Shown here: in pieces, positions 9,286 through 57,955 of the stretch
How the letters are laid out: the number at the start of each line of letters is the position of its first letter
Numbering within the stretch: the stretch's first letter is position 1
IMG/VR virus record: IMGVR_UViG_3300027336_000001
Location: 124,001-188,000 of that record
Source: a virus
Length of the DNA: 64,000 bases
Strand: one strand, 5' to 3'
Notes under the pieces: generated by a model
The model's input: the letters and a program-made list of their open reading frames with translations, nothing else
The model's database searches: none
What the model was told of the DNA's origin: nothing
Translations under genes and position numbers: made by a program

Positions 9286-11652
9286 TTAAAGCGATATGAG
9301 TATTATTTCAACACTTGCAGTACCATCATATATAACTTGAGTGTTATTATTTAATACATATTGCTCAAGATTTAAGATGCCATTATTTAATAAGAAAGGT
9401 GCATTATTTACACCACTGCTCTTAAACACAGGACAAACATCCTCAAAAACAAAGGTTTGCTCTAAGCCTATCCACTCATCTTTAAAAAAACTAAACTCAC
9501 TAGCTAAACCACTATTGTCTGTTACTGTATCTTTAATTTTAGTTTGTCTAGGCTTTTCAGGTGGATTTGCATTGCCTAATGGATTTGCCATAAATTCATC
9601 CACATTAAAAGCAACCTGCTTAACAATATTCTTAAATGGTATCATGCCTTCATTTAAATCATCAGGTCTAAACCAATCACCACTTTGACTAACTGAACGA
9701 TTTGTTAAGCATACAACATCTATCACTATGCCATCTGCTATGCCATTAAAAGTAATTGCATTGCCATTTACTTTATATGCAGTGATATTTGTCAATCCTT
9801 GCTTAACAGATATCATTCGTTTCACATGAAAAGGTAAAATCACTTTACCATCTAAGACAGATACACTTGCACTAGCAGGTGCTAATACTCTATGCACAGC
9901 ATTAATAACATTGTGTCTGTTTAATTTATTTTTAGAATTTAAAAGCAAAGATGAGTTATTAAGAGTATCTGTATTACTATGTGCATAAAATGATCTTACC
10001 CATTCTTTTACTAATGGATATGTATTCTTATGGTGAAATAAGACCTGTGCATTTCTTTTTTCAATTCTATTCGCAGGCAAAAGATTTGTTGTTGGTCTTT
10101 GGTTTCTAGGTCTATATGAATTAAGCACAAAGCTAGTATCATTTAAAGCAGTGAAACATACTTGATCTGTTTCATCATAAGGATAAGTGATTTCAATTTC
10201 AGTAGTGGATGTACTTAAAGAAATAACACGAGTAAATGGATTGTATTCTGTAATTTCTACACTGCTAGTAAAATCACTTGGTAGGATAGGCATACCATAA
10301 ATTGTATATGGTGTAGAAAAAGGTAAAGTAAATTGACTTGTTAAGACAGGGAAAGTTTGACTATATGTTTTATATCTCAATGGTCTTGTCTTAAAAGAAG
10401 ATTGTAGATTTTCTAATAGATATAAGTTAGCTGTGGTAGCAGTCAAAGGTCTATCCAAAGTGAAAACCTGTGCAGATAATTTATATGTATAAGGATTTAC
10501 TTTTAAGATGAAATAAGCAGATGCACCTATTAAGACTAATTCACCTTCTTGCATAACTAACATAGATGCAATTAAGCAATGGTTTACAATAGAACCTGTG
10601 CCTGTTAAGTTAAGTCTTGGTACAGAATAAGAAACACTAGGTGCATCATCTGCCAAAACAGTATTAATGGCAACAATCTTTCTCTCTTGATTATTTACAC
10701 GGATACGATCATTTATCCTAAAACCACTATCATACACTCTTAGGAATTTAGAGTTTGTAAGAGTATATCCATAAACACTAGATAAATAAATGCCTTGATC
10801 TGTCTTTCTTAAATCCTCTTGAAACATTAAACCAGCAGTCAAAGAAAAATCAAAGGTAGGTTTATTAATAACTTCTTTAAATAAAGTACTTGGTCTATTA
10901 CCTATATTGACATGAGCAGGTTTAGTTTTTAAGAGTAGCTTATATAAATTATCCTGTAGTGTAATCACATCCTGTTGAAAACCATATAAGACTTCATGTG
11001 TATGTCCACTAGCAGTTTGAACGATGCCATCTAAAACATCATGTTGGTGTAGATCATCACCCCATTTATATCCTATAGGTGCAGATGTTTTACCTAAACC
11101 TAAAATAGGTGCATATACATAATGTTTATGTCCATTCACTTCTGTTGTCAAAGCATAAGATGAGATAAGACAGTCAATTAAAAAATCACCTATTTCTGAA
11201 ATCTCAACAAGACTATTCGCTTGAACTTTATTAAGAAGATATAAAATAGCTTTACCTGTGCTACCTTGTAATAATGCTTGGATAAGATTTAAAATCGTAT
11301 ATCTCAATTCTGTTTCATTATTAAAAGAAGGTCTATCTACAGATTTAGGAAAAAGTAGTCCATAAAGTCTATCATTAAAAAACTCAGGTCTAATTTGAGA
11401 GTAGTCCACTTCATTTACAAGGTCTAAGCAATCTAATAAAAGACTAGAAAGAGTTTTACCTAGACCTTCATATAAAATTCTATTATTGCTACCATATTCG
11501 GAAAGGTAGTTAGATGCTAAAGAACCTGAAAGAGCATTAGCATAAGCGACTACAAGTGAATCCTGTAATGCTTTTTTTTCTTCACTTTTACTGCCAATCG
11601 GATCTGTATTGGCAATTGGGAAATCAGGATAAAAAGGAATTTTATCACTCAT
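9286..11652 (-). CDS. Large baseplate/tail protein with His-rich HxH motifs, 788 aa
   Basis: The first 150 residues are helical (LSSLLLDCLDLVNEVDYSQI, LRYTILNLIQALLQG), unlike the neighbouring beta-rich proteins. They are followed by a histidine-rich section with HKHY, LHQHD and GHTHE at about residues 172-215. HxH motifs of this type bind metal in some phage fibre tips such as T4 gp37; the parallel is only by motif. The rest is beta-rich. The gene directly follows the J-like baseplate protein (4 nt gap), the position of tail protein I/gp7-like wedge components in contractile tails. I infer a baseplate wedge protein that carries fibres. The initiation site is weak and the gene is probably translationally coupled. 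Confidence 0.68.
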   Translation of the reverse strand: MSDKIPFYPDFPIANTDPIGSKSEEKKALQDSLVVAYANALSGSLASNYLSEYGSNNRILYEGLGKTLSSLLLDCLDLVNEVDYSQIRPEFFNDRLYGLLFPKSVDRPSFNNETELRYTILNLIQALLQGSTGKAILYLLNKVQANSLVEISEIGDFLIDCLISSYALTTEVNGHKHYVYAPILGLGKTSAPIGYKWGDDLHQHDVLDGIVQTASGHTHEVLYGFQQDVITLQDNLYKLLLKTKPAHVNIGNRPSTLFKEVINKPTFDFSLTAGLMFQEDLRKTDQGIYLSSVYGYTLTNSKFLRVYDSGFRINDRIRVNNQERKIVAINTVLADDAPSVSYSVPRLNLTGTGSIVNHCLIASMLVMQEGELVLIGASAYFILKVNPYTYKLSAQVFTLDRPLTATTANLYLLENLQSSFKTRPLRYKTYSQTFPVLTSQFTLPFSTPYTIYGMPILPSDFTSSVEITEYNPFTRVISLSTSTTEIEITYPYDETDQVCFTALNDTSFVLNSYRPRNQRPTTNLLPANRIEKRNAQVLFHHKNTYPLVKEWVRSFYAHSNTDTLNNSSLLLNSKNKLNRHNVINAVHRVLAPASASVSVLDGKVILPFHVKRMISVKQGLTNITAYKVNGNAITFNGIADGIVIDVVCLTNRSVSQSGDWFRPDDLNEGMIPFKNIVKQVAFNVDEFMANPLGNANPPEKPRQTKIKDTVTDNSGLASEFSFFKDEWIGLEQTFVFEDVCPVFKSSGVNNAPFLLNNGILNLEQYVLNNNTQVIYDGTASVEIILISL

Positions 11653-16100: not shown

Positions 16101-16394
16101 ATGATCCACTTTTCTACACTAAACCAAATCATCTCTACTAAATACAGCAACCTCGAAATCACATCCGTGTGTAGTTTCGATGGTTATATCTTTACTTGTG
16201 AGTACACAGGTAAACACAAAGACCAAACAAGAGTAAATCTTATTTACAGAACACCTGTAAATAAAGCAATCTGCACCTTTACTTTATCTATCTATGATAA
16301 AGATGGCATTCAAATCGAAGATAGATTTGAGTCCTGCAAATCAGAAGATAGTCAAAAAGTCATCACCAAACTTTTACCAAAAAACATCAAATAA
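16101..16394 (+). CDS. Small protein of unknown function, 97 aa; duplicated at 57659-57955
   Basis: First gene of a class A promoter unit, with AAAGGATAAAAAAA before the ATG. It is clearly paralogous to the 98-residue protein on the opposite strand at 57659-57955: identical blocks KYSNLEITSVCSFDGYIFTC and YRTPVNKAIC, then GxQIEDRFESC near the C-terminus. Conserved cysteines at about residues 24, 33, 55 and 79 could matter for folding or metal binding. It is soluble with an alpha/beta pattern. The next gene downstream is also duplicated there, so the pair moves as a unit. Function unknown. Promoter type and size suggest an early host-takeover gene, which is an inference. Confidence 0.75.
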   Translation: MIHFSTLNQIISTKYSNLEITSVCSFDGYIFTCEYTGKHKDQTRVNLIYRTPVNKAICTFTLSIYDKDGIQIEDRFESCKSEDSQKVITKLLPKNIK

Positions 16395-16405
16395 GGAGTA
16401 TTACT

Positions 16406-16696
16406 ATGTTAACTCAAATTTTAAATCAATCCATCATCTCTACTCTTTCTTCTGTCTATGCAGATATCAAATCTGATATTTTGCAGAATGGCAGTATTGA
16501 CATTCACTTGGATGTTAATACCAAAATCCACATACATGGGATGAAACAAATCCAAAAAGGTAAAACCTATATCCTTGTGCAAGTCATTCAAATAAATGGT
16601 GACTTTACAAAGTCTAGGACTTTCTACATTGACCAGACTGATCCTGATTCAGTAAAACCAAAACTCAAATTTTTGTTGAGCAAGAAGGGATGGTAA
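16406..16696 (+). CDS. Small protein of unknown function, 96 aa; duplicated at 57366-57644
   Basis: It follows the previous gene after 11 nt with AAGGAG before the ATG. It is strongly similar to the 92-residue product at 57366-57644 on the minus strand: QNGSIDIHLD, TKIHIHGxKQIQxGKTYILV and FTKSRxFYID are shared, with a matching end (PKLKFLLxKKxW). The C-terminus diverges little. This copy has a four-residue longer N-terminus. The IHLD/HIHG segments look like paired beta strands. No known domain is recognised. Together with its upstream neighbour it forms an inverted duplicate gene pair separated by about 41 kb. Confidence 0.75.
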   Translation: MLTQILNQSIISTLSSVYADIKSDILQNGSIDIHLDVNTKIHIHGMKQIQKGKTYILVQVIQINGDFTKSRTFYIDQTDPDSVKPKLKFLLSKKGW

Positions 16697-29871: not shown

Positions 29872-32472
29872 ATGTTTTCAGATTTCTTTGAATCACTACA
29901 AAGACCAGATGTTAAACCTAAAAAATGGATGAAAGAAGTTGATCTCATTTTAGGTACTAAAGATAATATTAAACAAGCTATTGATGAATGTTTGGCATCT
30001 AGTCATTATGGCATAGATTTAGAAACAACAGGTTTAGATAATCGTGTTTTTCATGGTAGAACAAGAGCATCTATTGTAGGTATCTCTATTGCTCCGAATG
30101 AAAAGAAAGCATATTACTTTCCTATTAGACACAGTGCAGGTACAGAACATAATGTTTCATGGTCAATCATAGATAGAGAATTTAGTCGCTTGCTTAATGT
30201 AAATGCTACTGCTATTCCTATATTCCATAATGGTGCTTTTGATCAAGAGTTTTTAGAATATAATGGCGAAACTCTTTTAGGTAAAGAAAGATTTGAAAAT
30301 CCAAAGCTATGGGAAGATAACTATATTATGGCTTGTCTTATGAACAGTCGTGATAAAGGTGGTCGTGGTCTTAAAGATATGTCTAAAGATAAATTAGGTT
30401 GGGAAATGATTGAACTTGATGAACTCATTCCTAAATCTAAAATTAAAGATTATTCTACTCTTGATCCGTCTTGGGATGCTTGTGTATGGTATGCAGGTGC
30501 TGATGCTTTATGTACTCTTAAACTTTATAATATCTTAAAAGACATCTTTCCTAAAGAAATGATTAGTCTTTATATGATAGAAAAGAAATGCAATACATCA
30601 GTTAGGTGGATGCACAGAAACAGAGTTTATATTGATCAAAAGAAAACACAAGAGTTTATTAAGATTGGTCAAAAGGAATGGATGGACAGCCTTATTGAAG
30701 TATATGAAGGAGCAAATGAATTACTTGGTAGAGATGTTATGCCAGCATACATTAAAATCATGAAAGGCGATTTAAAAGGTGTTAATAAGTTTAATACAGA
30801 TAATACAGATAGCTTTAAAGATTGCATAGACGAGGCAAGAAAAGAAGCTGATCGTATGTATCCACATTTAGATATGGCAGGTGAAGATTTTGTAGCTAGA
30901 AAAATGGTAGCATCTTTAACTAATCCTAAACAAAAAGAAGAAGTAGTCTTTGAATATAAATATGATATTTTATCTTCTCAACAATTAGGCATGATGTTTA
31001 GAGAATTAGAAGTACCTAATTTACAAACTACTGCAAGTGGTCAAGTGGCAACAGGTGCTGATGTTTTAGATGAAGTAATTGAAGAGGCATCCGATACTTT
31101 TCCATTTGTGAGAAAGATTAAAAGATTAAGAGAACTAGCTAAAGCATTAGGTCAATATCTCATACCTATGAAAGAAGATATTGCAGATGATGGTACATTA
31201 AAACCAAAGTTTAATCAGTTCGGAGCAGATACAGGTCGTTTTAGTTGTGGTACTACAAGTAGACCATGGGAGACAAAAGATGGTGGTTGTAGAGTACCTT
31301 TTCAAGGTATTCCATCAGGATATGATCCGAAAAGACCAATGATTACTTCAAGATTAAGAGAGTGTATTGCAGTAAGAAATCCTGATCATTATTTAGTAGC
31401 AATTGACTATGCAGGTGTTGAGTTAAGAATTGTAACAAACATTAGTCAAGAGCCTTTATGGATTGAAGAATTTTTTAGATGTTCATCATGCAATCGTAAA
31501 TATACTAAAGAACGAGGCGAAGATGGATTTCCTATTATACCACCAGCTATCTGTATATGTGGATCAGATAAAATAGGTGATTTGCATACATTGACAGCAG
31601 TTGCTTTTTATGGTGAAGAGGCAAAGAAAAGACCTGATTGGAAAGCATTAAGAGGCAATGCGAAAGGTGTTAATTTTGCTTTATGTTATGGTGGTACAGG
31701 TAAAGCAGTAGTTAGAACTATTAGTTGTACTCAAGAAGAAGGTGATGAGAAATATCAAACCTTTACAAAGACATATAAAGGTTTAACAAAGTGGTGGAAA
31801 AAGGAAGTGGATTTTGCCAAAGAAAATGGATATGTATTAACAGCTTTTGGTCGAAGAATGTTAATGCCTGATATTAAATCTAAAGAGTTTTCTTTGAGAT
31901 CAAAGGATGAGAGAAAGGCAGTAAATTCACCTGTGCAAGGTACGAGTGCAGATATTACTAAGATTGCAATGAGTTTAATTTATGAGAATGTTAAAAAGAG
32001 AAATTGGTTTGATAAGCTAATGATGATTTTAACAGTGCATGATGAAATTGTGTTTGAAATCCATAAAGACATTATAGGTGAAGCGATACCTTTGTTATGT
32101 GATATTATGGTTAGGAATAAAGCATTGCAAAATAAGAATTGGATTGTACCATTAACAGTGGATGTTGAGATAGGAAAAGATTGGTCTGTGCCTTATGACT
32201 TGAAAGAGTTAAGGGAAGGCAAAGGTGAAGATGAGTTTTTAGTAAATGCTTTTAAAGTAGATCATAGTGGACAGCCAAAGCCAAAGGTATTAAATGAAAC
32301 AACCTTAAGCACGGAGCAAGAGGAAAAAGCAAAGCATTATGAGATTTATGAGTTGAGTGAGTTATCTCATAGTGAAACAGACAGGTTAAGCGAATGGATT
32401 AAGAATAATGCAGGTAAAGACATTAAGATTATGTATCAAGGTAGAGATGTATCTATCTTATTAAAGGAATAA
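29872..32472 (+). CDS. polA-like: DNA polymerase I (family A) with 3'-5' exonuclease domain, 866 aa
   Basis: A replicative-type family A polymerase. The exonuclease domain has DLETTGLD (D49, E51), NGAFDQEF and YAGADALCTLKLY as Exo I, II and III. Polymerase motif A is DYAGVELRI (D512), motif B RGNAKGVNFALCYGG (R594, K598) and motif C VHDEIVF (H723, D724, E725); all key residues are present. Between motifs A and B there is an extra zinc-ribbon-like insertion (C537, C540, C561, C563). No 5'-3' exonuclease domain is present. Shine-Dalgarno AAAAGGACAATC. As the only visible replication enzyme it probably copies the phage genome. The C-terminal 80 residues (KVLNETTLSTEQEEKA onwards) extend beyond the usual core. 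Confidence 0.93.
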   Translation: MFSDFFESLQRPDVKPKKWMKEVDLILGTKDNIKQAIDECLASSHYGIDLETTGLDNRVFHGRTRASIVGISIAPNEKKAYYFPIRHSAGTEHNVSWSIIDREFSRLLNVNATAIPIFHNGAFDQEFLEYNGETLLGKERFENPKLWEDNYIMACLMNSRDKGGRGLKDMSKDKLGWEMIELDELIPKSKIKDYSTLDPSWDACVWYAGADALCTLKLYNILKDIFPKEMISLYMIEKKCNTSVRWMHRNRVYIDQKKTQEFIKIGQKEWMDSLIEVYEGANELLGRDVMPAYIKIMKGDLKGVNKFNTDNTDSFKDCIDEARKEADRMYPHLDMAGEDFVARKMVASLTNPKQKEEVVFEYKYDILSSQQLGMMFRELEVPNLQTTASGQVATGADVLDEVIEEASDTFPFVRKIKRLRELAKALGQYLIPMKEDIADDGTLKPKFNQFGADTGRFSCGTTSRPWETKDGGCRVPFQGIPSGYDPKRPMITSRLRECIAVRNPDHYLVAIDYAGVELRIVTNISQEPLWIEEFFRCSSCNRKYTKERGEDGFPIIPPAICICGSDKIGDLHTLTAVAFYGEEAKKRPDWKALRGNAKGVNFALCYGGTGKAVVRTISCTQEEGDEKYQTFTKTYKGLTKWWKKEVDFAKENGYVLTAFGRRMLMPDIKSKEFSLRSKDERKAVNSPVQGTSADITKIAMSLIYENVKKRNWFDKLMMILTVHDEIVFEIHKDIIGEAIPLLCDIMVRNKALQNKNWIVPLTVDVEIGKDWSVPYDLKELREGKGEDEFLVNAFKVDHSGQPKPKVLNETTLSTEQEEKAKHYEIYELSELSHSETDRLSEWIKNNAGKDIKIMYQGRDVSILLKE

Positions 32473-32478
32473 ATTAAA

Positions 32479-32712
32479 ATGATCTGTTATTTTAATAATC
32501 GTGGTGGTTGTGTATGTCATAATCATTGGCAAGTAGCATTATTTAGTAGTGCATATCACAATCAACATGGTTTCTATATAAGAAAAGATAATTTTAGGAA
32601 GTCAATTTCTTTATATATAGGAAGGTCTTTACCTAAACATACTTGGATGAATGATCCTGATGTGTATTTGGCATTATCAGTGGAAAGAACAAAAAATGAT
32701 CTGTTGGTTTAA
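32479..32712 (+). CDS. Tandem-array small protein 1, 77 aa
   Basis: First of seven adjacent paralogous genes. The N-terminus MICYFNNRGGCVCHNHWQVA corresponds to the family MICWFxNxGN pattern, the centre has DNFRKSISLYIGRSL, and TWMNDPDVYLA follows. Unlike its relatives, the ending does not stop at the usual APxK motif but runs on (LSVERTKNDLLV), overlapping the next gene by 17 nt. It starts 6 nt after the polymerase stop and uses AAAGGAATAAATTAAA inside the polymerase 3' end. Two cysteines in CVCH are private to this copy. Confidence 0.68.
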   Translation: MICYFNNRGGCVCHNHWQVALFSSAYHNQHGFYIRKDNFRKSISLYIGRSLPKHTWMNDPDVYLALSVERTKNDLLV

Positions 32713-32917
32713 TAATAATGGCAATAATGTGCAGTTCAATCCTTTACTTGTATGTTTTATTTCATCTAAATTATCATCTAATGTTAGTGGAATGTATCCT
32801 AGAAATAAAGAATCGTTTAGAAATACAATAGGTTTATTTATAGCTAGGACTTTACCTGAAAATACATGGATGAACGATCCTGATGTATATTTAGCACCAT
32901 GTAAGAAAGATAAGTAA
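32696..32917 (+). CDS. Tandem-array small protein 2, 73 aa
   Basis: The start is the ATG at 32696, inside the preceding gene. It aligns with the start of all other array members (MICWFNNNGNNVQFNPLLVC), whereas a longer in-frame extension does not. The family blocks ESFRNTIGLFIARTLP and TWMNDPDVYLAPCKKDK are present. It shares an identical TWMNDPDVYLA with copy 1, so these two are recent relatives over that part. Function unknown. Confidence 0.72.
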   Translation: MICWFNNNGNNVQFNPLLVCFISSKLSSNVSGMYPRNKESFRNTIGLFIARTLPENTWMNDPDVYLAPCKKDK

Positions 32918-32918
32918 A

Positions 32919-33140
32919 ATGATCTGTTGGTTTCACTCACATGGAAATTTAGTAAGATACAATAAAGAGTTAGTATTCTTAGTAAATAACTATCAAGGTG
33001 CAGGATTTCATATAAGGGAGGGAAACTCATTTAGGAAGAGTATAGCTTTCTTTAATGTTAGAGCATTAGTCCAGCCTAATGGTAGAAATTGGTATCAAGA
33101 TTGTGATGTGCATTTAGCACCATGTAAGAGAGATAAGTAA
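32919..33140 (+). CDS. Tandem-array small protein 3, 73 aa
   Basis: It begins MICWFHSHGNLVRYNKELVF, then has NNYQGAGFHI, which is shared only with copy 7 (NNYEGAGLVI). This is followed by NSFRKSIAFFNVRAL and CDVHLAPCKRDK. The closest relative is therefore not an immediate neighbour, which suggests unequal crossing-over or gene conversion rather than simple serial duplication. The ATG is 1 nt after the previous stop (GATAAGTAAAATG junction). Confidence 0.72.
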   Translation: MICWFHSHGNLVRYNKELVFLVNNYQGAGFHIREGNSFRKSIAFFNVRALVQPNGRNWYQDCDVHLAPCKRDK

Positions 33141-33141
33141 A

Positions 33142-33369
33142 ATGATTTTTAGTTTTGAGATGTCAGCGAATGAAGTGAAAAGAAATACTCGATTTGTGTT
33201 AATCACTTCAAGTTCTTTTGGAAACACAGGATTACCTATAAAAGAAACTAATTTTAGAGATGCTTTAGCTTTCTATATTGTGAGAACAGGTTATCTTATG
33301 GATTCTAGGAAATATGAGAATTGGCATCGTGCTAATGATATGTATTTTAAACCTACTATAGAAAGATAA
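33142..33369 (+). CDS. Tandem-array small protein 4, 75 aa
   Basis: The most diverged member. It starts MIFSFEMSANEVKRNTRFVL, keeps TNFRDALAFYIVRTG and NDMYFKP in place of the usual NFRxSIALxIAR and DVYLAP blocks, and has lost the first-line Trp. The junction to the next gene has 5 nt. Its divergence shows that the array is old enough for members to specialise or decay. Confidence 0.68.
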   Translation: MIFSFEMSANEVKRNTRFVLITSSSFGNTGLPIKETNFRDALAFYIVRTGYLMDSRKYENWHRANDMYFKPTIER

Positions 33370-33374
33370 GTAAA

Positions 33375-33602
33375 ATGATTTGTTGGTTTGAAAATTCAAA
33401 TAATGACATCACATCTATTGATTCTCATGTCTTCTTTTTATCAAGTGTATCTAGTAGACATTCAGGATATTACATAGATCAGAAAAACTTTAGATTAAAT
33501 ATGTCTATCTATGTAGCAAGAGGAAGAGATGTTATAAATAGAACTTGGATAAATAATTGTGATAGATATTATGCTCCTATTATTAAGGATGAAGAGAAAT
33601 GA
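33375..33602 (+). CDS. Tandem-array small protein 5, 75 aa
   Basis: It begins MICWFENSNNDITSIDSHVF, followed by KNFRLNMSIYVARGRD, TWINNCDRYYAPIIKDEEK. It keeps the MICWF start and the NFR/AR/DxYYAP positions. It ends with an ATGA overlap with copy 6, indicating translational coupling. Function unknown. Confidence 0.7.
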   Translation: MICWFENSNNDITSIDSHVFFLSSVSSRHSGYYIDQKNFRLNMSIYVARGRDVINRTWINNCDRYYAPIIKDEEK

Positions 33603-33835
33603 TTTGTTGGTTAGAATTATCATCAAATGATGTAATGCACTCATCACAATATAAGTATTTTATTAGTTCTATTACTTCAAAAGCTAGTAGAGATGATTGT
33701 GGCAAACAAGGTTTCTTTTTACAGCCTTATTATTTTAGAGATAGCATAGCATTAAGTGTATCTAAATCTTTAATAAAACATACTTGGATAAATCAAGCAG
33801 ATGTGTATTTAGCACCTAAGAAAGAATGTAGATAA
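33599..33835 (+). CDS. Tandem-array small protein 6, 78 aa
   Basis: The longest member: MICWLELSSNDVMHSSQYKY, a slightly longer central loop (SKASRDDCGKQGFFL), then YYFRDSIALSVSKSLI and TWINQADVYLAPKKECR. It overlaps copy 5 by ATGA. The central loop is the most variable part between members, and the flanking NFR and DVYLAP blocks are the most constant. Confidence 0.7.
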   Translation: MICWLELSSNDVMHSSQYKYFISSITSKASRDDCGKQGFFLQPYYFRDSIALSVSKSLIKHTWINQADVYLAPKKECR

Positions 33836-33836
33836 A

Positions 33837-34055
33837 ATGTTATATTGGTTTCATCATGGTGGCAATAGGTTTCAATATAATGAAAAGCTATGTCATTATA
33901 TAAACAATTATGAAGGAGCTGGACTTGTGATTACAAAAGATAATTTTAGAAGGTGTATGGCATTATCGATTGCAAGAGCAAGAGAAATCGTAGGCAGAAA
34001 TAATTGGATTGTAGATTCTGATTTATATATCTCACCAAAGAAAGAAGATAAATAA
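33837..34055 (+). CDS. Tandem-array small protein 7, 72 aa
   Basis: It begins MLYWFHHGGNRFQYNEKLCH, then NNYEGAGLVITKDNFRRC, MALSIARAREIVG and DLYISPKKEDK. It is most similar to copy 3. It ends 1 nt before the CxxC protein at 34057. Across the array the constant core is [MI-C-W-F]...[NFRxSxAxxxAR]...[W...D-x-Y-x-A-P-x-K] with about 215-240 bp per unit. Confidence 0.7.
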   Translation: MLYWFHHGGNRFQYNEKLCHYINNYEGAGLVITKDNFRRCMALSIARAREIVGRNNWIVDSDLYISPKKEDK

Positions 34056-34056
34056 A

Positions 34057-34542
34057 ATGAAAGATTTATTATTTGAATGTAATAATCAAGGCATGACAGA
34101 AAAAGACTTTACTGAAATGTTTTGCAAGGTTTGTAAAAATAGAAAATGTGAAAGAGCAAGCTGGGCATTTTCTACTTGGGATGAAAGAATTATTACTCAA
34201 GTCGATAGGTTTTTTAATACACCTACAATAAAGCAATCTGAAGCATCTCAATATAAAGGCATCAGTGATTTTGAAGAATACCATATCAATCCAGCTATTG
34301 ATGTATGGACACCAGCTAGTTTAGATTTTAATAAAACACAGCCTAAACATTATAAGATAGGACAGATTGAAAAACCTGTTGTCATATCTCAAAATGATGA
34401 GATAAACACACCTGTGCAAAATCTATATTTTGTAGGTAATCCACAAGACCTTAAACCACAACAACCTGTCATTCAACAAGACGAATGGTCTTTGCCACCT
34501 AAAACTTTAAAAGTAGGTGGCAAATTTCAAATGGGAAAATAA
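34057..34542 (+). CDS. Small Cys-cluster protein, 161 aa
   Basis: A CxxCxxxxC cluster (C23, C26, C31, in MFCKVCKNRKCERASWAF) and a SxWDERIxxQxDRFF helix resemble a zinc-binding motif seen in several large phages, where CxxCxNxxCxxA precedes an Arg-rich helix. The remainder is Pro/Gln-rich (PQDLKPQQPVIQQDE), probably unstructured, ending KVGGKFQMGK. It follows the seven-gene array after 1 nt with no strong ribosome binding site. Possibly a small virion or DNA-binding protein; function unknown. Confidence 0.6.
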   Translation: MKDLLFECNNQGMTEKDFTEMFCKVCKNRKCERASWAFSTWDERIITQVDRFFNTPTIKQSEASQYKGISDFEEYHINPAIDVWTPASLDFNKTQPKHYKIGQIEKPVVISQNDEINTPVQNLYFVGNPQDLKPQQPVIQQDEWSLPPKTLKVGGKFQMGK

Positions 34543-36624: not shown

Positions 36625-37185
36625 TTAAAATCCTTTTCTTTTTCTTAGAGATGCCATCACTTGACGACCTTCTGAGTTTACTTCACGATCAACCATAAGA
36701 GCAGGTCTACGAACCATGTAATTGGGCCATTTCTCTGCCCATTTAGAATAGAAAGTACTTGAATCTACAATCCTAACAGTTTGATCAGGATCAGGGATAT
36801 TTGGATCAGCAACATAAACATCCATAGTACCATCAGGTTTTTCTACTACATCAAAAATTAAACTTGCATGACTCCATTCTCTACCTTCAGGATTCCAAGA
36901 GATGAGAACAGGCTTGCCTAGATCTGTCCAGCCTTTAACTTGCTTTAAAGTAGAAGGTACAACTAAAGTACCTCTACAGCCATAATGTTGCAGGCAGGCT
37001 AAAACTTCTTCCCATCTAGCACCTTGCATAGGTTTAGCACCAATTACTTTTTGAACTTCATCTTCTGATGTGTCAAAACCTAAAGCATTTAATGCCATAG
37101 CAGTAGATGCAGATACACAAGAGTATTGTGTTCTTTGCCTAACAGGATTTACATTAGCTTTGGCAATACGATTTTTAAAAAACAT
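36625..37185 (-). CDS. Papain/C39-like cysteine peptidase, 186 aa
   Basis: I choose the ATG at 37185 (AAAGG 10 nt upstream). It gives the same type of basic leader as its neighbours (MFFKNRIAKANVNPVRQRTQ). Q17/Q20, C23 (QYSCVSASTAMALNALG), H106 (WSHASLIFDV) and D127 (VADPN) form the usual Gln-Cys-His-Asp set of C39-type papain-fold peptidases, which act on peptides or as deubiquitinase-like and bacteriocin-processing enzymes. The length is usual for the single domain. The leader and the following gene suggest a virion-packaged protease or a maturation enzyme. The leader's QRTQ is shared with the gene at 40454. Confidence 0.7.
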   Translation of the reverse strand: MFFKNRIAKANVNPVRQRTQYSCVSASTAMALNALGFDTSEDEVQKVIGAKPMQGARWEEVLACLQHYGCRGTLVVPSTLKQVKGWTDLGKPVLISWNPEGREWSHASLIFDVVEKPDGTMDVYVADPNIPDPDQTVRIVDSSTFYSKWAEKWPNYMVRRPALMVDREVNSEGRQVMASLRKRKGF

Positions 37186-37256
37186 AGGATTAAAACCTTT
37201 CATCTTTATATGTATGAAAGATAGATAGAATATAAAAAGAATATGAAAAAACTTAA

Positions 37257-38510: not shown

Positions 38511-39845
38511 ATGACAACAAGCATACCATTACCAACAGATGGCAAAAAAATTAAAGCATTATTTGATAATCCAAATAGCTTTCAAATCACTAATGACAAT
38601 CTCAATTTTCCATTTCAATGCTACTTTGTAGGTGGCAGGTTGGAAAACATTAAAGATGTGATTTTACCTGCATTGAGAAAAGAACTAGGCATGAATTTTA
38701 TGTTTGGTGGACATAAAGATCCAACCAAAAAGTCTTTTCCAATCATTCCATTTACTACAATGCTTGTCTTTCATTTAAAAGATATGTCAGGACATCCTAT
38801 AAGAGAATGGGCAAAAAAAGAAGCAGATGATTTAGGCATACCATTTATTGAGATTGTGCAAAAAATCAAACCTACGATTGAAACCATTCAAAAACACTAT
38901 CCAAACTTTTGGGAAATATCACAAAGGTTTAAAATGTTAAGATCTCTATTACCAGCAGAGGACTGCAAACAAGAAAGTGACTTTTTTGTGTTCACAGTTG
39001 AAAATTTTATTAAAACAATCATTCAAAAAGAAGATTGGTTAGTGATTGAAAAAAACTGTATGGATAAACCATATCGTTTACTACCTGTGAATGTGCATAA
39101 TGAAAATCCTGTAGATTTTTACAGAAAATGTATCAGAGAAAACATTAACAATTTCTTAAATGGTCTTGAAAATCCTTTGGATATGACTACAAGCACACCT
39201 TTACCACCAAGAGTAGAATCTTGGTATGAACAAGGTGCGATCTTATTAACAGATCATGTTTTATCTGTAATACAAGGTAAATCAGAACGATACAGCAAAG
39301 AACAGTATCTTGAAATCAAAAGACAATGGCTGATTGATATGGTTACTGATCCTGTTCTTGATAAAGAATGGACTAAAAACTTCCATAAGATTGATCAAGC
39401 ATTTAAAGGCATTTTTGGTTGTGGCATTCCATCTGTACTTAAAACAGAAGTAAAAGACATGATGGAAATGAAATACCAAGATGATTTTAAACATCTTTTA
39501 GATAACCAACCTACCATTGTAGAGCAACCTGCAACCATTGTAGAACAACCAACCATTATAGAACAACCAACCATTATAGAACAACCAACCATTATAGAGC
39601 AACCTATAGTAGAGCAACCACCTATAGAAAAGGATATACCTGTTATGAAAACAGATACTATTAAAACAGAAACCAAAGTGTTTAAGAGTGCAGGCATCAA
39701 TGGAATGAAATTCCAAATGACAGAAGGTGCAACCTTAATCATTGAAAATATCCAAATCAATGATTTAGATTTAAAGGAATGCAGTCAAGTAGTCATTAAA
39801 AATGTAAATGGAAATCAAGTAGGTGAAATGAAGATTACCTTTTAA
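38511..39845 (+). CDS. DUF2325-like N-terminal domain with hexapeptide repeat linker, 444 aa
   Basis: The N-terminal 110 residues (QCYFVGGRLENIKDVILPAL; then GMNFMFGGHKD; FPIIPFTTMLVF; then HPIREWAKKEADDLGIPFIE) follow the layout of DUF2325-type nucleotide-fold domains: a GGRLEN turn, a GxxxH/D loop, and a helix preceding GIPF. The middle is helical. A low-complexity linker of PTIxEQ hexapeptides (residues about 333-370) leads to a C-terminal beta domain (AGINGMKFQMTEGATLIIEN). AAAGGAAAACTTTAA precedes the ATG. The stop abuts the convergent gene at 39846. Function unknown. Confidence 0.65.
   Translation: MTTSIPLPTDGKKIKALFDNPNSFQITNDNLNFPFQCYFVGGRLENIKDVILPALRKELGMNFMFGGHKDPTKKSFPIIPFTTMLVFHLKDMSGHPIREWAKKEADDLGIPFIEIVQKIKPTIETIQKHYPNFWEISQRFKMLRSLLPAEDCKQESDFFVFTVENFIKTIIQKEDWLVIEKNCMDKPYRLLPVNVHNENPVDFYRKCIRENINNFLNGLENPLDMTTSTPLPPRVESWYEQGAILLTDHVLSVIQGKSERYSKEQYLEIKRQWLIDMVTDPVLDKEWTKNFHKIDQAFKGIFGCGIPSVLKTEVKDMMEMKYQDDFKHLLDNQPTIVEQPATIVEQPTIIEQPTIIEQPTIIEQPIVEQPPIEKDIPVMKTDTIKTETKVFKSAGINGMKFQMTEGATLIIENIQINDLDLKECSQVVIKNVNGNQVGEMKITF
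39508..39618 (+). repeat. Short tandem repeat (18 bp unit) coding for PTIIEQ
   Basis: About six imperfect copies of an 18 bp unit (ACCATTATAGAACAACCA) inside the gene at 38511. Three central copies are almost identical, so copy number could vary by slippage. The peptide is a Glu/Gln/Pro/Ile linker. Confidence 0.75.
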
Positions 39846-42738: not shown

Positions 42739-45700
42739 ATGCTTACTACATACCTAAACCAACTTAAAGATATCGAATCTCGTAATGGTTCTGAATACTC
42801 TTATCGTCCTGCTCTTAAATCTATTCTTAAAGGTCTTGTCTTTACTGATGAACCAACAGGCAAAGGTAAAAATAAAATTGATATGGAAGTCTATACTCAA
42901 AACTCTTTGGTAGCTTTCTATATTGAAACTAAAAACCTTAATGAAGATTTATCTCATAAAAAACATCAAGACCAATTCAATAGATATAAGCAGGCATTTC
43001 CTAAATTGCTTATCACTAACTTTATTGACTTTGAATTTTACCAAGATGGCATCCTATTAGATAAATGCAAACTAGATGAAACCAATCCTGCCAGCTTTGA
43101 TAAGTTTAATACCTTGCTAGATAACTTCATGGCAAGCACTATCCATTTTAATAATCCTTTGGCATTAGCTAAAAAACTTGCAGATAAAACTAAGCTACTT
43201 AAAGCAGACATCTTATCTACTTTAAATACTGATGATCTTGAAATTGAGCAAAAGATTAAAACCAAAAAGAAATACAAGCTGGTGGCATATAGAAATGAAT
43301 TTAAAAAGATGCTTATTGAAGATATTGATAACAGTCAATTTGCAGACCTTTATGCACAAACTTTAAGTTATGGTTTATTTGCATCAAGGTATTATGCTTT
43401 CCAAAAAGATCCAAATGCTATCTTTACTAGATCAGATGCTTCAAATCTTATCCCAAATACCAATCCTTTATTAAAGCAATTCTTTGATACCATTAGCAAT
43501 GATAAGAATGAGTTATCCCAAAGCATCAATAATTTGATAGATGCAATCACAACCATTTTAGCTAACACGGATATGAGTAAAATCATTTCATCTTTAAAGC
43601 TGGCTAACAATGATATAGTTATTCACTTTTATGAGAATTTTTTAGAGCAATATGATCCTGAATTAAGAAAGCAAATGGGTGTTTGGTACACACCTGTAGA
43701 AGTAGTGGACTATATTGTAAAAGGTGTAGATGAAATCTTAAAGACTAAGTTTGCTATTAAAGATGGTATTTCATCTAGTGAAAAGCAATCCTATACCTAC
43801 AATAAAAAAGTAAAGGTAGGTGAAAACTCATATAAAACAGAAATGGTAAATAAAGAAAATGTGCATAAGGTACAGATTTTAGATCCTGCGACAGGCACAG
43901 GCAATTTTTTAAATTCAGTAGTTTCATATATCAAGAGTAATTACAAGTATCCTTCTTTATGGAATGATTATGTGAATAAAGATTTGATACCTAGATTAAA
44001 TGGTTTTGAATTGATGATGCCTTCTTATGTGATGGCACACATGAAGATGTATGAGTTATTAAAAGACAGTTTAAGTGAAGATACAGAAAGATTTAACATT
44101 TACTTAACAAACACCTTAAATGGTGCAGTGGATGTAGAAGAGCATTTATTGAGTGTGAGTGATTTGGTTTATCAATTAAATGAAGAGGCAATAGGAGCAA
44201 ATAGAGTAAGACAAGAACAGCCTGTGATGGTAGTTCTTGGCAATCCACCTTATAATGGTAGGAGTAAGAATAATGGCAAGTTTATTAATGATCTCATGGG
44301 TGATTATGCTATGAAAGGTAGCAGTGGTGCTTTAAATGATGACTACATTAAGTTTATTAGGTATGCACAGAATCTTATTGATCAAAATGGCAGTGGTGTA
44401 GTAGCTTATATTTCCAACAGTAGTTTCTTATCTTCTATTGGTATGACAAATATGAGAAAGTCTTTATTAGAAAGTTTTGATGAGATTTACATTCTTAATT
44501 TTAAAGATGAAAATGTTTTTAACATCAAGACACCTGTGTGCATCTCATTCTTCGTTAAGACTAATAAGAAAGTAGTAGGTAATTTGGCTAGTGTACACTA
44601 TCATGAAATTAAAGGCTCAAAGGAAGGTAAATTTAAATATTTGGAAACAAATTCAATTTCGGAAAATAATTTTATAAAAATAGAGATATTCAAGCCTGAA
44701 TATTACTTATATTATCAAGAAAGTTCTATTAAAAGTGAATACGACCAAAATAGTTTTTCTTTAGAACATTGCTTTAAAGAAAGCAGTATTGGTATCACAA
44801 CAGGTTGTGATAATTTACTTTTAGATACTAATTCAGATAGACTTTCTATGAAAATAGAAAATTATTTAAAAAATAGTATCTTACCTTTAGACTGTTCAGA
44901 AACAGTAAACACTAGGAAAATTCAGCAGTCTATAAATAAGAAAGAGGATGGTATTTTCTCTACCTTAACATATAGAGTTTTTGACACTAGACATTACTTT
45001 GATAGTAAATTGACAGCTCGTAGAAGAGAAGAAATCAAAAAACATGAGCAAGCGAAAGAGCAAATATTTTTAATTTATTCTCGAACCTGTTTTGAAGATA
45101 ATTTTGCACATATACAATACACAAAAACAATTCCTGATATTAAATTCTTTAAAGGTGACAGAGGTGTTCACTCTACACCTTTATTTCTCTATAATGAAGG
45201 CAGTAGCATTATGCCTGCATCTCAATCATCTAACTTCACAACTGACTTTCTAAACGAATTTGGGAAAGCAATCTCTAAATCTCACCAAGATGAACCCACA
45301 CTAGCTACAGACCAAACCTTCTCTTCTCTCGATACTATGGATTATATCTATGGTGTCCTTAACGATAAAGCATACACTACTAAATATAACCAATTCCTTA
45401 AATCAAATTATCCAAGAGTACCTTATCCACAATCTATTGCTACTTTCATCCAATATAAAGATGCAGGTAGTAAGTTAAGAGTCATCCACCTAGATGATAC
45501 TACTCAAGATACTACATCTACATACAATGCCACAACCAATAATAAGATTGAGAAAATCTTCTTTGATACAGATAAAGTGTATTTCAATAAGACTAGCTAT
45601 TTTGATAATATCTCTCAAGCCATGTTCGACTTTAAAATAGGTGCTTCACAGCCACTTAAAAATTGGTTGGAAAGTAGAAAAGATGATACCTTTGACCAAA

Positions 45701-45753
45701 CCATGATTGAACAATATTTAAATGTCATTTATAAAGTTAGACATTCTTGCTAA
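42739..45753 (+). CDS. Single-chain restriction-modification enzyme (type IIG-like), 1004 aa
   Basis: The N-terminal region has a PD-(D/E)xK-type nuclease pattern (D48...E63-T-K65 in VAFYIETK). A helical connector follows, then an N6-adenine methyltransferase with DPATGTGNF (382-390) and NPPY (502-505). The C-terminal 400 residues should be the target recognition domain. No helicase (DEAD/Walker) segment lies between nuclease and methylase, so this is closer to type IIG than to type ISP or type I. The ATG directly follows the upstream stop. In a phage it could degrade host or rival phage DNA or modify its own genome. Catalytic residues look intact. Modification specificity is unknown. Confidence 0.85.
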   Translation: MLTTYLNQLKDIESRNGSEYSYRPALKSILKGLVFTDEPTGKGKNKIDMEVYTQNSLVAFYIETKNLNEDLSHKKHQDQFNRYKQAFPKLLITNFIDFEFYQDGILLDKCKLDETNPASFDKFNTLLDNFMASTIHFNNPLALAKKLADKTKLLKADILSTLNTDDLEIEQKIKTKKKYKLVAYRNEFKKMLIEDIDNSQFADLYAQTLSYGLFASRYYAFQKDPNAIFTRSDASNLIPNTNPLLKQFFDTISNDKNELSQSINNLIDAITTILANTDMSKIISSLKLANNDIVIHFYENFLEQYDPELRKQMGVWYTPVEVVDYIVKGVDEILKTKFAIKDGISSSEKQSYTYNKKVKVGENSYKTEMVNKENVHKVQILDPATGTGNFLNSVVSYIKSNYKYPSLWNDYVNKDLIPRLNGFELMMPSYVMAHMKMYELLKDSLSEDTERFNIYLTNTLNGAVDVEEHLLSVSDLVYQLNEEAIGANRVRQEQPVMVVLGNPPYNGRSKNNGKFINDLMGDYAMKGSSGALNDDYIKFIRYAQNLIDQNGSGVVAYISNSSFLSSIGMTNMRKSLLESFDEIYILNFKDENVFNIKTPVCISFFVKTNKKVVGNLASVHYHEIKGSKEGKFKYLETNSISENNFIKIEIFKPEYYLYYQESSIKSEYDQNSFSLEHCFKESSIGITTGCDNLLLDTNSDRLSMKIENYLKNSILPLDCSETVNTRKIQQSINKKEDGIFSTLTYRVFDTRHYFDSKLTARRREEIKKHEQAKEQIFLIYSRTCFEDNFAHIQYTKTIPDIKFFKGDRGVHSTPLFLYNEGSSIMPASQSSNFTTDFLNEFGKAISKSHQDEPTLATDQTFSSLDTMDYIYGVLNDKAYTTKYNQFLKSNYPRVPYPQSIATFIQYKDAGSKLRVIHLDDTTQDTTSTYNATTNNKIEKIFFDTDKVYFNKTSYFDNISQAMFDFKIGASQPLKNWLESRKDDTFDQTMIEQYLNVIYKVRHSC

Positions 45754-57365: not shown

Positions 57366-57644
57366 TTACCATTCTTTTTTGTTCAATAAGAATTTAAGTT
57401 TAGGAATGATAGATGCAGGTTTAGTTTCATCGATATAGAAAGACCTAGACTTTGTAAACTCACCTGTGCATTTAAGGACTTGAACTAAGATATAGGTTTT
57501 ACCTTGTTGGATTTGTTTTAAACCATGTATGTGGATTTTAGTAATGCCATCCAAATGGATATCAATACTGCCATTTTGCCAAATATCAGTATTGAGATTT
57601 GCATATACAGAAGAAAGAGTAGAGATGATAGCTTGATTTAACAT
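57366..57644 (-). CDS. Small protein, 92 aa, duplicate of 16406
   Basis: AAAGGACTTCATT precedes the start. It is near-identical in key segments to the 96-residue protein at 16406 (QNGSIDIHLD, HIHGLKQIQQGKTYILVQ, FTKSRSFYID, PKLKFLLNKKEW). It lacks the first four residues of that copy. The conserved body with divergent linkers argues for selection on both copies. Its partner upstream, 57659, is also duplicated. Function unknown. Confidence 0.72.
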   Translation of the reverse strand: MLNQAIISTLSSVYANLNTDIWQNGSIDIHLDGITKIHIHGLKQIQQGKTYILVQVLKCTGEFTKSRSFYIDETKPASIIPKLKFLLNKKEW

Positions 57645-57658
57645 AATGAAGTCCTTTA

Positions 57659-57955
57659 TTATTTAATGGATTTTGGTAAGAAGGTTTTGACTACCTTTTG
57701 GCAGTCTTGTGAAGAACAGGATTCAAATCTATCTTCGATTTGAACACCATTTTTGTCTTGTATAGACAAAAGGAAAGAACAGATTGCTTTATTGACAGGT
57801 GTTCTATAAACAAGAGTAAATCTTGTTTGTTTTTTGAGGTCTTTACCTGTGTACTGACAGGTAAAGATATAACCATCGAAACTACACACGGATGTGATTT
57901 CGAGGTTGCTGTATTTAGAAATTAAGGTTTCTAGTAGGTCTTGAAAGTGGATCAT
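57659..57955 (-). CDS. Small protein, 98 aa, duplicate of 16101
   Basis: AAAGGATAAAAAAA precedes the ATG, the same leader as for 16101. It shares LEITSVCSFDGYIFTC, YRTPVNKAIC and the RFESC region; the rest is diverged at roughly one third of positions. Promoter (57987-58015) and gene order (98 aa then 92 aa) repeat those at 16 kb, so the copied unit included its promoter. Function unknown. Confidence 0.73.
   Translation of the reverse strand: MIHFQDLLETLISKYSNLEITSVCSFDGYIFTCQYTGKDLKKQTRFTLVYRTPVNKAICSFLLSIQDKNGVQIEDRFESCSSQDCQKVVKTFLPKSIK

Follow-up and report, generated by a model that had tools for sequence, protein, structure and literature searches.

Seven tandem phage genes homologous to a recognition-region module of N6-adenine methyltransferases, a candidate split and multispecific modification enzyme

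The seven-gene array and its relatives

The window analysed here is a stretch of 64,000 nucleotides (nt) of viral DNA, positions 124001–188000 of a 195,689-base IMG/VR virus record (IMGVR_UViG_3300027336_000001), and its subject is a tandem array of seven homologous genes on the plus strand (32479–34055), which starts 6 nt past the stop codon of a DNA polymerase gene. These seven are the only copies in that record. Each encodes a small protein, hereafter called a module, with lengths of 77, 73, 73, 75, 75, 78 and 72 amino acids (aa) in array order. Comparison with full-length N6-adenine methyltransferases and with a gapped core enzyme of the same phage makes it probable that the array belongs to a split, multispecific methyltransferase of the phage, its specificity module having become detached and multiplied to form subunits that act in trans. 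The array and its flanks are listed below, with leave-one-out profile scores (six copies used to find the seventh) or the closest orthologue in a related record, L014.

29872–32472, plus strand: family A DNA polymerase (DNA_pol_A, E = 9e-70), upstream flank, outside the module system
32479–32712, plus strand: module copy 1, 77 aa; leave-one-out score 70.7 bits; no close L014 counterpart
32696–32917, plus strand: module copy 2, 73 aa; leave-one-out score 84.3 bits; 54% identity to copy 1
32919–33140, plus strand: module copy 3, 73 aa; orthologue L014 copy 4 (83%)
33142–33369, plus strand: module copy 4, 75 aa, the most diverged; orthologue L014 copy 2 (89%)
33375–33602, plus strand: module copy 5, 75 aa; orthologue L014 copy 3 (85%); the AlphaFold query
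33599–33835, plus strand: module copy 6, 78 aa; no close L014 counterpart (best 49%)
33837–34055, plus strand: module copy 7, 72 aa; orthologue L014 copy 8 (94%)
34057–34542, plus strand: conserved FCxxCxNxxC protein, 161 aa, downstream flank

The genes are tightly packed, with copies 1 and 2 overlapping by 17 nt, copies 5 and 6 overlapping by 4 nt, and gaps of 1–5 nt elsewhere. The start of copy 2 lies at 32696, within the end of copy 1, a correction for which a longer ATG at 32651 was discarded. A preliminary description of this DNA had reported seven consecutive paralogues of 72–78 residues behind the polymerase, and the profiles confirm it: all seven copies were recovered by leave-one-out profiles with 43–84 bits, compared with 8.7–12.7 bits for the best of 2000 shuffles each, so the seven frames are not unrelated. 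Its view of copy 4 as strongly diverged also holds (lowest leave-one-out score, 43 bits; best in-window identity 33%). Copies 3 and 7, described as closest to each other, do share NNYxGAG, but over its whole length copy 3 shows 44% identity to copy 2, slightly more than its 42% to copy 7. The longer direct repeats at the array are the gene homology itself.

Among 20 copies from the window, L014 and L015, another relative, mean entropy by position was 0.5 (1–5), 2.2 (6–20), 2.1 (21–36), 1.6 (37–50) and 1.9 (51–68). Variation is thus concentrated between the MICWF start and the helix, in the middle as first described, and the first half of the stand-alone copies is more variable and the second more conserved, except for the conserved first five residues. 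Stand-alone modules range in size from 69 to 98 aa and are basic (median isoelectric point (pI) 9.1, range 6.7–10.0, n=43). Ocr is strongly acidic, and an Ocr-like acidic DNA mimic was ruled out by this charge. A homing or mobile element, an idea raised by the position of copies amid replication genes, was likewise set aside, as the window copies contain no Pfam nuclease family.

None of the seven window copies matched PHROG or Pfam below E = 0.01; at E ≤ 1, Pfam returned Longin alone (E = 0.17, one copy) and no similarity to HsdS. The known-family search was extended to 34 family members against PHROGs, Pfam and PDB sequences, where Pfam at E ≤ 0.1 returned PF18867 and PF20085 alone, one member each, and no HsdS model. 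We take PF18867 ('HEPN-like integron', E = 0.0063), PF20085 (E = 0.027) and phrog_34072 (E = 0.0076) as chance matches, each in 1 of 34 members, and likewise phrog_19860 (E = 0.01) and phrog_17585 (E = 0.022), with two members each and hence at most 2 of 34.

The copies turn over quickly among close relatives. L012, L013 and L016, from other IMG/VR records, are 99.98–99.99% identical to the window across 18 kb and represent the same phage, and the end of the window's record overlaps L304 (on record G001) by 4,275 bases at 100% identity. The polymerases of L014 and L015 are 98% and 91% identical to that of the window; the comparison of copy number suggested in the preliminary description gave 11 and 2 copies behind them, respectively, against seven in the window. 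The order of orthologues is shuffled, window copies 3, 4, 5 and 7 corresponding to L014 copies 4, 2, 3 and 8, and window copies 1, 2 and 6 find no close match in that record, the best identities being 43–51%. All four orthologue pairs are under purifying selection, with ratios of nonsynonymous to synonymous substitution (dN/dS) of 0.08, 0.14, 0.12 and 0.06. In the more distant L025, the FCxxC gene lies 33 nt past the polymerase, an array-less version of the site, and a single copy occurs ~2 kb further on.

The window's phage has a second array, found when an enlarged alignment was used for scanning; it comprises 12 diverged copies in L023 on G001, eight at 6368–8225 and four at 10203–11147. 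The 316-kb record of L015 (G004) holds 12 module genes at three loci, two behind the polymerase, seven in L056 and three in L057; they yield 13 matches because one L056 gene is a fused double copy. Both G004 arrays away from the polymerase were found by profile A7, of which neither array was part. In L020, a single copy lies between genes for an SbcC/Rad50-like ATPase (AAA_23) and an Mre11-like phosphoesterase (Metallophos). The proposed tie to replication genes therefore stands in part: the polymerase adjoins the window array and the L057 array sits between DnaB-like helicase and CHC2 primase genes, but the other arrays (L023, L056) follow a methyltransferase gene. Within the records searched, stand-alone copies are confined to the lineage of the window's phage, G000–G008 (window phage, L014, G004, L020, L024 and L025). 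Whole-record searches of 17 polymerase relatives gave three with a match (one stand-alone, two inside a methyltransferase) and 14 without; in LR745208.1, a 485-kb relative, there was no module match in 485,034 bases.

Some features beside these loci were recorded in passing. A single 1758-aa frame encodes the polymerase of LR745208.1 (L008:9962–15238) and contains two insertions that resemble inteins by eye. Between the halves of the second array, the reverse strand of L023:8719–10204 encodes a GroES-like chaperonin (Cpn10, E = 6e-26) and a protein with many helix-turn-helix repeats. The fused gene of L056 (7045–7341, minus strand) encodes 98 aa with two FR..ARxR-like helices and looks like the product of unequal crossing-over between neighbours.

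The module inside full-length methyltransferases

A scan of 79 loci (75 polymerase relatives and L008, L020, L024 and L025), followed by the 17 whole relative records, returned profile matches inside two long proteins, one of 872 aa encoded directly upstream of the polymerase (L072) and one of 837 aa (L137). Both bear N6-adenine methyltransferase signatures (VWD..AGTGNL and NPPY). Plasmid homologues were present in 14 records, 11 of them covering at least 80% of the query; the six enzymes examined from these 14 are 795–895 aa long and all annotated 'hypothetical protein'. An ExK motif lies in the N-terminal region of the plasmid enzymes; judged by this motif, the region looks like a nuclease.

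The profile of the seven window copies alone detects the domain in all eight full-length enzymes (two viral, six plasmid) at aa ~577–723 with 17.5–45.5 bits; the best of 2000 shuffles reached 13.1 bits, and the weakest enzyme (17.5) lies little above it. With a 43-row profile (A10), the same eight enzymes score 24–65 bits against 8.8 for the best shuffle. With the window-only profile, two phage core enzymes lacking the domain, described in the next section, reach 1.2 and 0.7 bits. The shared domain is ~65 residues long and stands at one fixed place in all eight enzymes. By profile homology, the array genes are homologues of a module in the recognition region of methyltransferases, not an orphan phage family. 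The preliminary description knew no phage family with this plan and proposed a profile search with the seven members: the profile libraries gave no match, as said above, but the search itself traced the plan to a widespread N6-adenine methyltransferase family.

Enzymes of this family occur in bacteria of many phyla. Pfam and NCBIfam barely cover it (weak matches, 1–2 of 10 members each), and PADLOC models of Type II methyltransferases match 2 of 10 members (best E = 2e-7). The 50,697 phage records of INPHARED contained no match to window copy 2, a second-array copy, the G004 core or the L164 enzyme.

The 607-aa L164 enzyme, modelled with AlphaFold from 47 sequences, reached a predicted local distance difference test score (pLDDT) of 90.5 and a predicted template modelling score (pTM) of 0.88; the module corresponds to residues 345–410, and pLDDT is 92–98 over the domain. 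The best matches of the model are the gamma-class adenine methyltransferases CamA, BseCI, M.TaqI, MmeI, DrdV and LlaBIII, with Foldseek E values down to 7e-7, best VIA Z values of 15.6–18.7 and sequence identities of 8–17% in the structure alignments listed. The CamA alignment pairs model residues 12–603 with CamA residues 2–575 (370 aligned, root-mean-square deviation 5.3 Å); since the target-recognition domain (TRD) of CamA spans residues 320–577 (PMC8187626), the module would lie in the target-recognition half by chain order. In a viral structure library, the best match was the siphovirus N-6 DNA methylase A0A8S5SDC8 (E = 3e-21, TM-score 0.61). The model of stand-alone copy 5 has strands at 3–6, 20–22 and 32–34 and a helix at 36–49, an order that agrees with residues 346–394 of L164, whose model has an extra short helix at 355–360.

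Variability (entropy) along the enzymes peaks at residues 271–390. For a pairwise test, 129 non-identical open reading frames (ORFs) spanning the recognition region were compared, and 6,435 of 8,256 pairs had at least 60% coverage in every segment. In the 72 pairs with 70–80% catalytic identity, median identity was 43% at 300–344 and 37% at 345–379, compared with 73% at 380–410 and 73% at the C-terminus; above 80% catalytic identity, the dip is gone (medians 0.89–0.91 at 300–344) in 40 pairs that are mostly near-identical rumen enzymes. L159 and L154 illustrate the pattern, being 93–100% identical from residue 395 on and 7–47% identical at 305–379. These alignments indicate that close relatives exchange a sequence cassette that ends, on its right, where the module's conserved helix begins. 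Indirectly, they suggest that the module belongs to the specificity-determining part as far as its first half is concerned, not its second.

The module is usually built into a longer chain. Among 80 viral loci kept of 106, it occurs once in a single ORF in 55, twice in tandem in one (L208), and in a two-ORF enzyme in 20; three loci are partial, and the remaining locus is the module-less core of the window's phage (L193); these counts contain near-identical records (L198–L204 and L222 among the 20 split) and L151, perhaps a broken frame. The split loci, among them L182, L192, L198–L204, L206, L207, L209, L211, L213, L216, L217, L219, L222 and L223, mostly have ORFs of ~500 and ~300 aa; the module is part of the C-terminal piece, a layout that suggests a natural split between catalysis and specificity. 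L208 (5926–7941) carries its two modules in one chain (ORF aa 352–417 and 448–510) and is a natural candidate for double specificity. The 20 split loci, like L208, may represent intermediates. In 80 genome loci (kept of 208; two archaeal assemblies), A10 at E < 0.05 found the module once in a single ORF in 71 and gave no match in five, four further loci being partial; four of the five without a match were inspected and keep 64–69 residues at the module site.

Stand-alone modules were sought in 35 viral records, which cover 36 of the 80 viral loci and exclude the window's phage, and at 26 of the 80 genome loci, at an E ≤ 0.001 threshold that would miss strongly diverged stand-alone copies. None was found in the 35 other virus records (37 matches) or in the 26 bacterial genomes (26 matches), every match lying in a frame of at least 276 aa. 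A Campylobacter genome (L287), one of the 26, had no module match at this threshold.

The gapped core and the competing explanations

The window's phage encodes a methyltransferase of this family from which exactly the module is missing. This core (520 aa, G001:24854–26413 = L023:4809–6371) stands directly before the second array; its gene lies ~41 kb downstream of the window array and begins 3.7 kb past the end of the 195.7-kb record, beyond the window but within a 99.99% identical record that extends further. A scan for cores found only one other, in G004 (519 aa, L056:7757–9316), likewise without a module and 82% identical to the first. Both align with the full-length enzymes across the catalytic domain and the C-terminus, and both are missing the N-terminal ~310 aa together with exactly the module, with 34–35 unrelated residues at the gap site where the other enzymes inspected have 64–69. 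The core motifs, DCCSGSGNL followed by NPPY, are in the order of gamma-class N6-adenine enzymes, and the core is 41% identical to L164, the homologue on which the fold was predicted. In both phages, the first module overlaps the core stop codon by ATGA, an overlap that indicates translational coupling of the modules to both cores. The missing N-terminal part is the one with the ExK-like motif; the cores would thus not qualify as Type IIG enzymes, which carry a nuclease domain in the same chain, and the loss fits a purely protective enzyme.

The split, multispecific methyltransferase that we consider probable draws direct support from the homology, the position of the module in the enzyme, its absence from the core, the copy number and turnover, and the purifying selection on orthologues. 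In its fuller form, on which we are less confident but still lean towards acceptance, it would be a modular combinatorial enzyme with a gapped core and swappable ~75-residue modules spread over two or three operons; the window's phage encodes a single core and no fewer than 19 modules, seven of them ~41 kb from the core. Beyond the direct support, we infer a docking half, assembly in trans, a separate specificity for each module and protection from restriction. The better conserved half of the module (the NFRxSIALxxARxL...WxNxxDxYLAP helix and tail) would most likely dock into the core's gap, with the variable first half helping to read DNA. Each module could then confer a different methylation pattern, so that one core would methylate several motifs, and the set would protect the replicating genome from several host restriction systems. 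The stand-alone modules are probably interchangeable, and the earlier suggestion of interchangeable subunits or anti-defence proteins fits detached specificity modules that protect phage DNA and is partly supported in this form.

Several observations weigh against this explanation. The core was found in only two of eight records (G001 and G004), the other six being fragments or ending before the region, and many modules are far from the core gene (7 of 19 in the window's phage, 5 of 12 in G004). The core retains the first part of the exchanged cassette (residues ~300–344), and the module may therefore set only part of the specificity. Foldseek TM-scores are low (0.23–0.32), DrdV and LlaBIII align only up to residues 354–358, and the structure matches give first and last aligned residues only, so that the placement in the TRD is by chain order. 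The AlphaFold model of the single stand-alone copy is of low confidence (copy 5, pLDDT 64.5). L159 and L154 show a second dip, 47–60% identity at 155–199 in the catalytic part next to the catalytic motif; variability alone therefore fails to single out the module. Finally, synonymous divergence (dS) between orthologues is 0.46–1.41, above the 0.28–0.38 of neighbouring genes, and single dN/dS values are rough; the raised dS fits exchange of modules between phages followed by their retention.

The modules might instead be independent of the core, small proteins that bind specific DNA sequences and so mask sites or control phage genes. Their basic charge (median pI 9.1), their descent from the DNA-reading part of the enzyme and the many copies in operons distant from the core (window, L057, L020) would all agree with such a role, which we nevertheless regard as unlikely, because two cores lack exactly this piece and appear translationally coupled to modules, and because the half that is better conserved in free copies is also the better conserved one in intact enzymes (380–410). 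Somewhat less plausible still is a role as decoys, dominant-negative recognition modules that interfere with the host's restriction-modification enzymes of this family. Potential targets exist in bacteria of many phyla (80 genome loci kept of 208), and the N-terminal ExK-motif region of the plasmid enzymes is nuclease-like; yet in the host enzymes seen the module forms part of a single chain and would have to be displaced by a free copy, the phage retains a gapped core of its own, and no free module was found in the 35 other virus records with the enzyme.

Two further explanations appear very improbable. Selfish or neutral amplification of a functionless coding fragment could account for the high turnover and for copies scattered among unrelated genes, but not readily for purifying selection in all four orthologue pairs or for seven intact frames in the window array. 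Slimmer again is the chance that the array is a store of cassettes recombining into the methyltransferase gene, like phase-variable HsdS loci, with small-protein expression incidental. Order, number and content do vary among near relatives, and L056 has a fused double copy; against this, the core has no module to replace and carries other residues there, and the array consists of complete, tightly spaced genes with start codons and dN/dS of 0.06–0.14.

The window also contains a second modification enzyme, a 1004-aa Type ISP-like adenine methyltransferase (42739–45753, plus strand; Type_ISP_C, E = 5e-47; N6_Mtase, E = 9e-16), among whose Pfam matches there is no helicase family. It was considered as a partner of the modules and rejected, being of the Type ISP type with no module inside. 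Elsewhere in the window, a pair of small genes is found once on each strand (16101–16696, plus strand; 57366–57955, minus strand), encoding MIHF... and ML.Q... proteins of 97/96 and 98/92 aa that are similar by eye. A C39-like cysteine peptidase (Peptidase_C39_2, E = 2.6e-8) is encoded at 36625–37203 on the minus strand, and a 444-aa protein with a repeated VEQPTIIEQP-like stretch and overlapping reverse frames at 38511–39845 on the plus strand.

Known systems and significance

The core is predicted to share its fold and the order of motif I, NPPY and C-terminal TRD with CamA, M.TaqI, BseCI, MmeI and DrdV, gamma-class enzymes of the Type IIG, Type IIL or orphan kind. To our knowledge, none of these five has a detached module. 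Multispecificity is described for the C5 methyltransferases of Bacillus phages (SPR, phi3T, rho11 and H2), where tandem TRDs give several targets per enzyme (PMC8936443). Like them, L208 has two modules in one chain, and one enzyme serving several sites is proposed here; unlike these cytosine-C5 enzymes, which hold all TRDs in one polypeptide, the phage core is of the N6-adenine type (NPPY) and its putative modules are separate genes at several loci. Split enzymes also have precedents: M.AquI and M.EcoHK31I are naturally split, and fragments of M.SssI, M.HhaI, M.BspRI and M.BsuRI reassemble to active enzyme (PMC3404938). Those C5 enzymes consist of two fixed pieces, whereas the system proposed here would pair one core with many small modules.

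Solitary HsdS specificity subunits, of which 77 are reported on Lactococcus plasmids (PMC6458302), offer a third parallel. In both cases, specificity would be encoded apart from the catalytic subunit, in variable repertoires. Unlike HsdS, a larger protein with two TRDs and spacers, the modules are only 69–98 aa long and match no HsdS model. We found no report of a core methyltransferase with a separate library of recognition modules among the open-access journal papers searched.

If correct, the explanation favoured here would describe a natural methyltransferase with plug-in specificity, in which counter-restriction scales by the addition of 220-bp genes. By gaining, losing and shuffling modules, the phage could match a multi-site methylation pattern to the restriction repertoire of its hosts. 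It makes testable the question of whether a small recognition module can reprogram an adenine methyltransferase in trans, and the modules would then form a parts list for programmable methylation. The finding points to a widespread prokaryotic enzyme family that is hardly seen by Pfam and NCBIfam, and it would account for one class of 'unknown' tandem small genes in huge phage.

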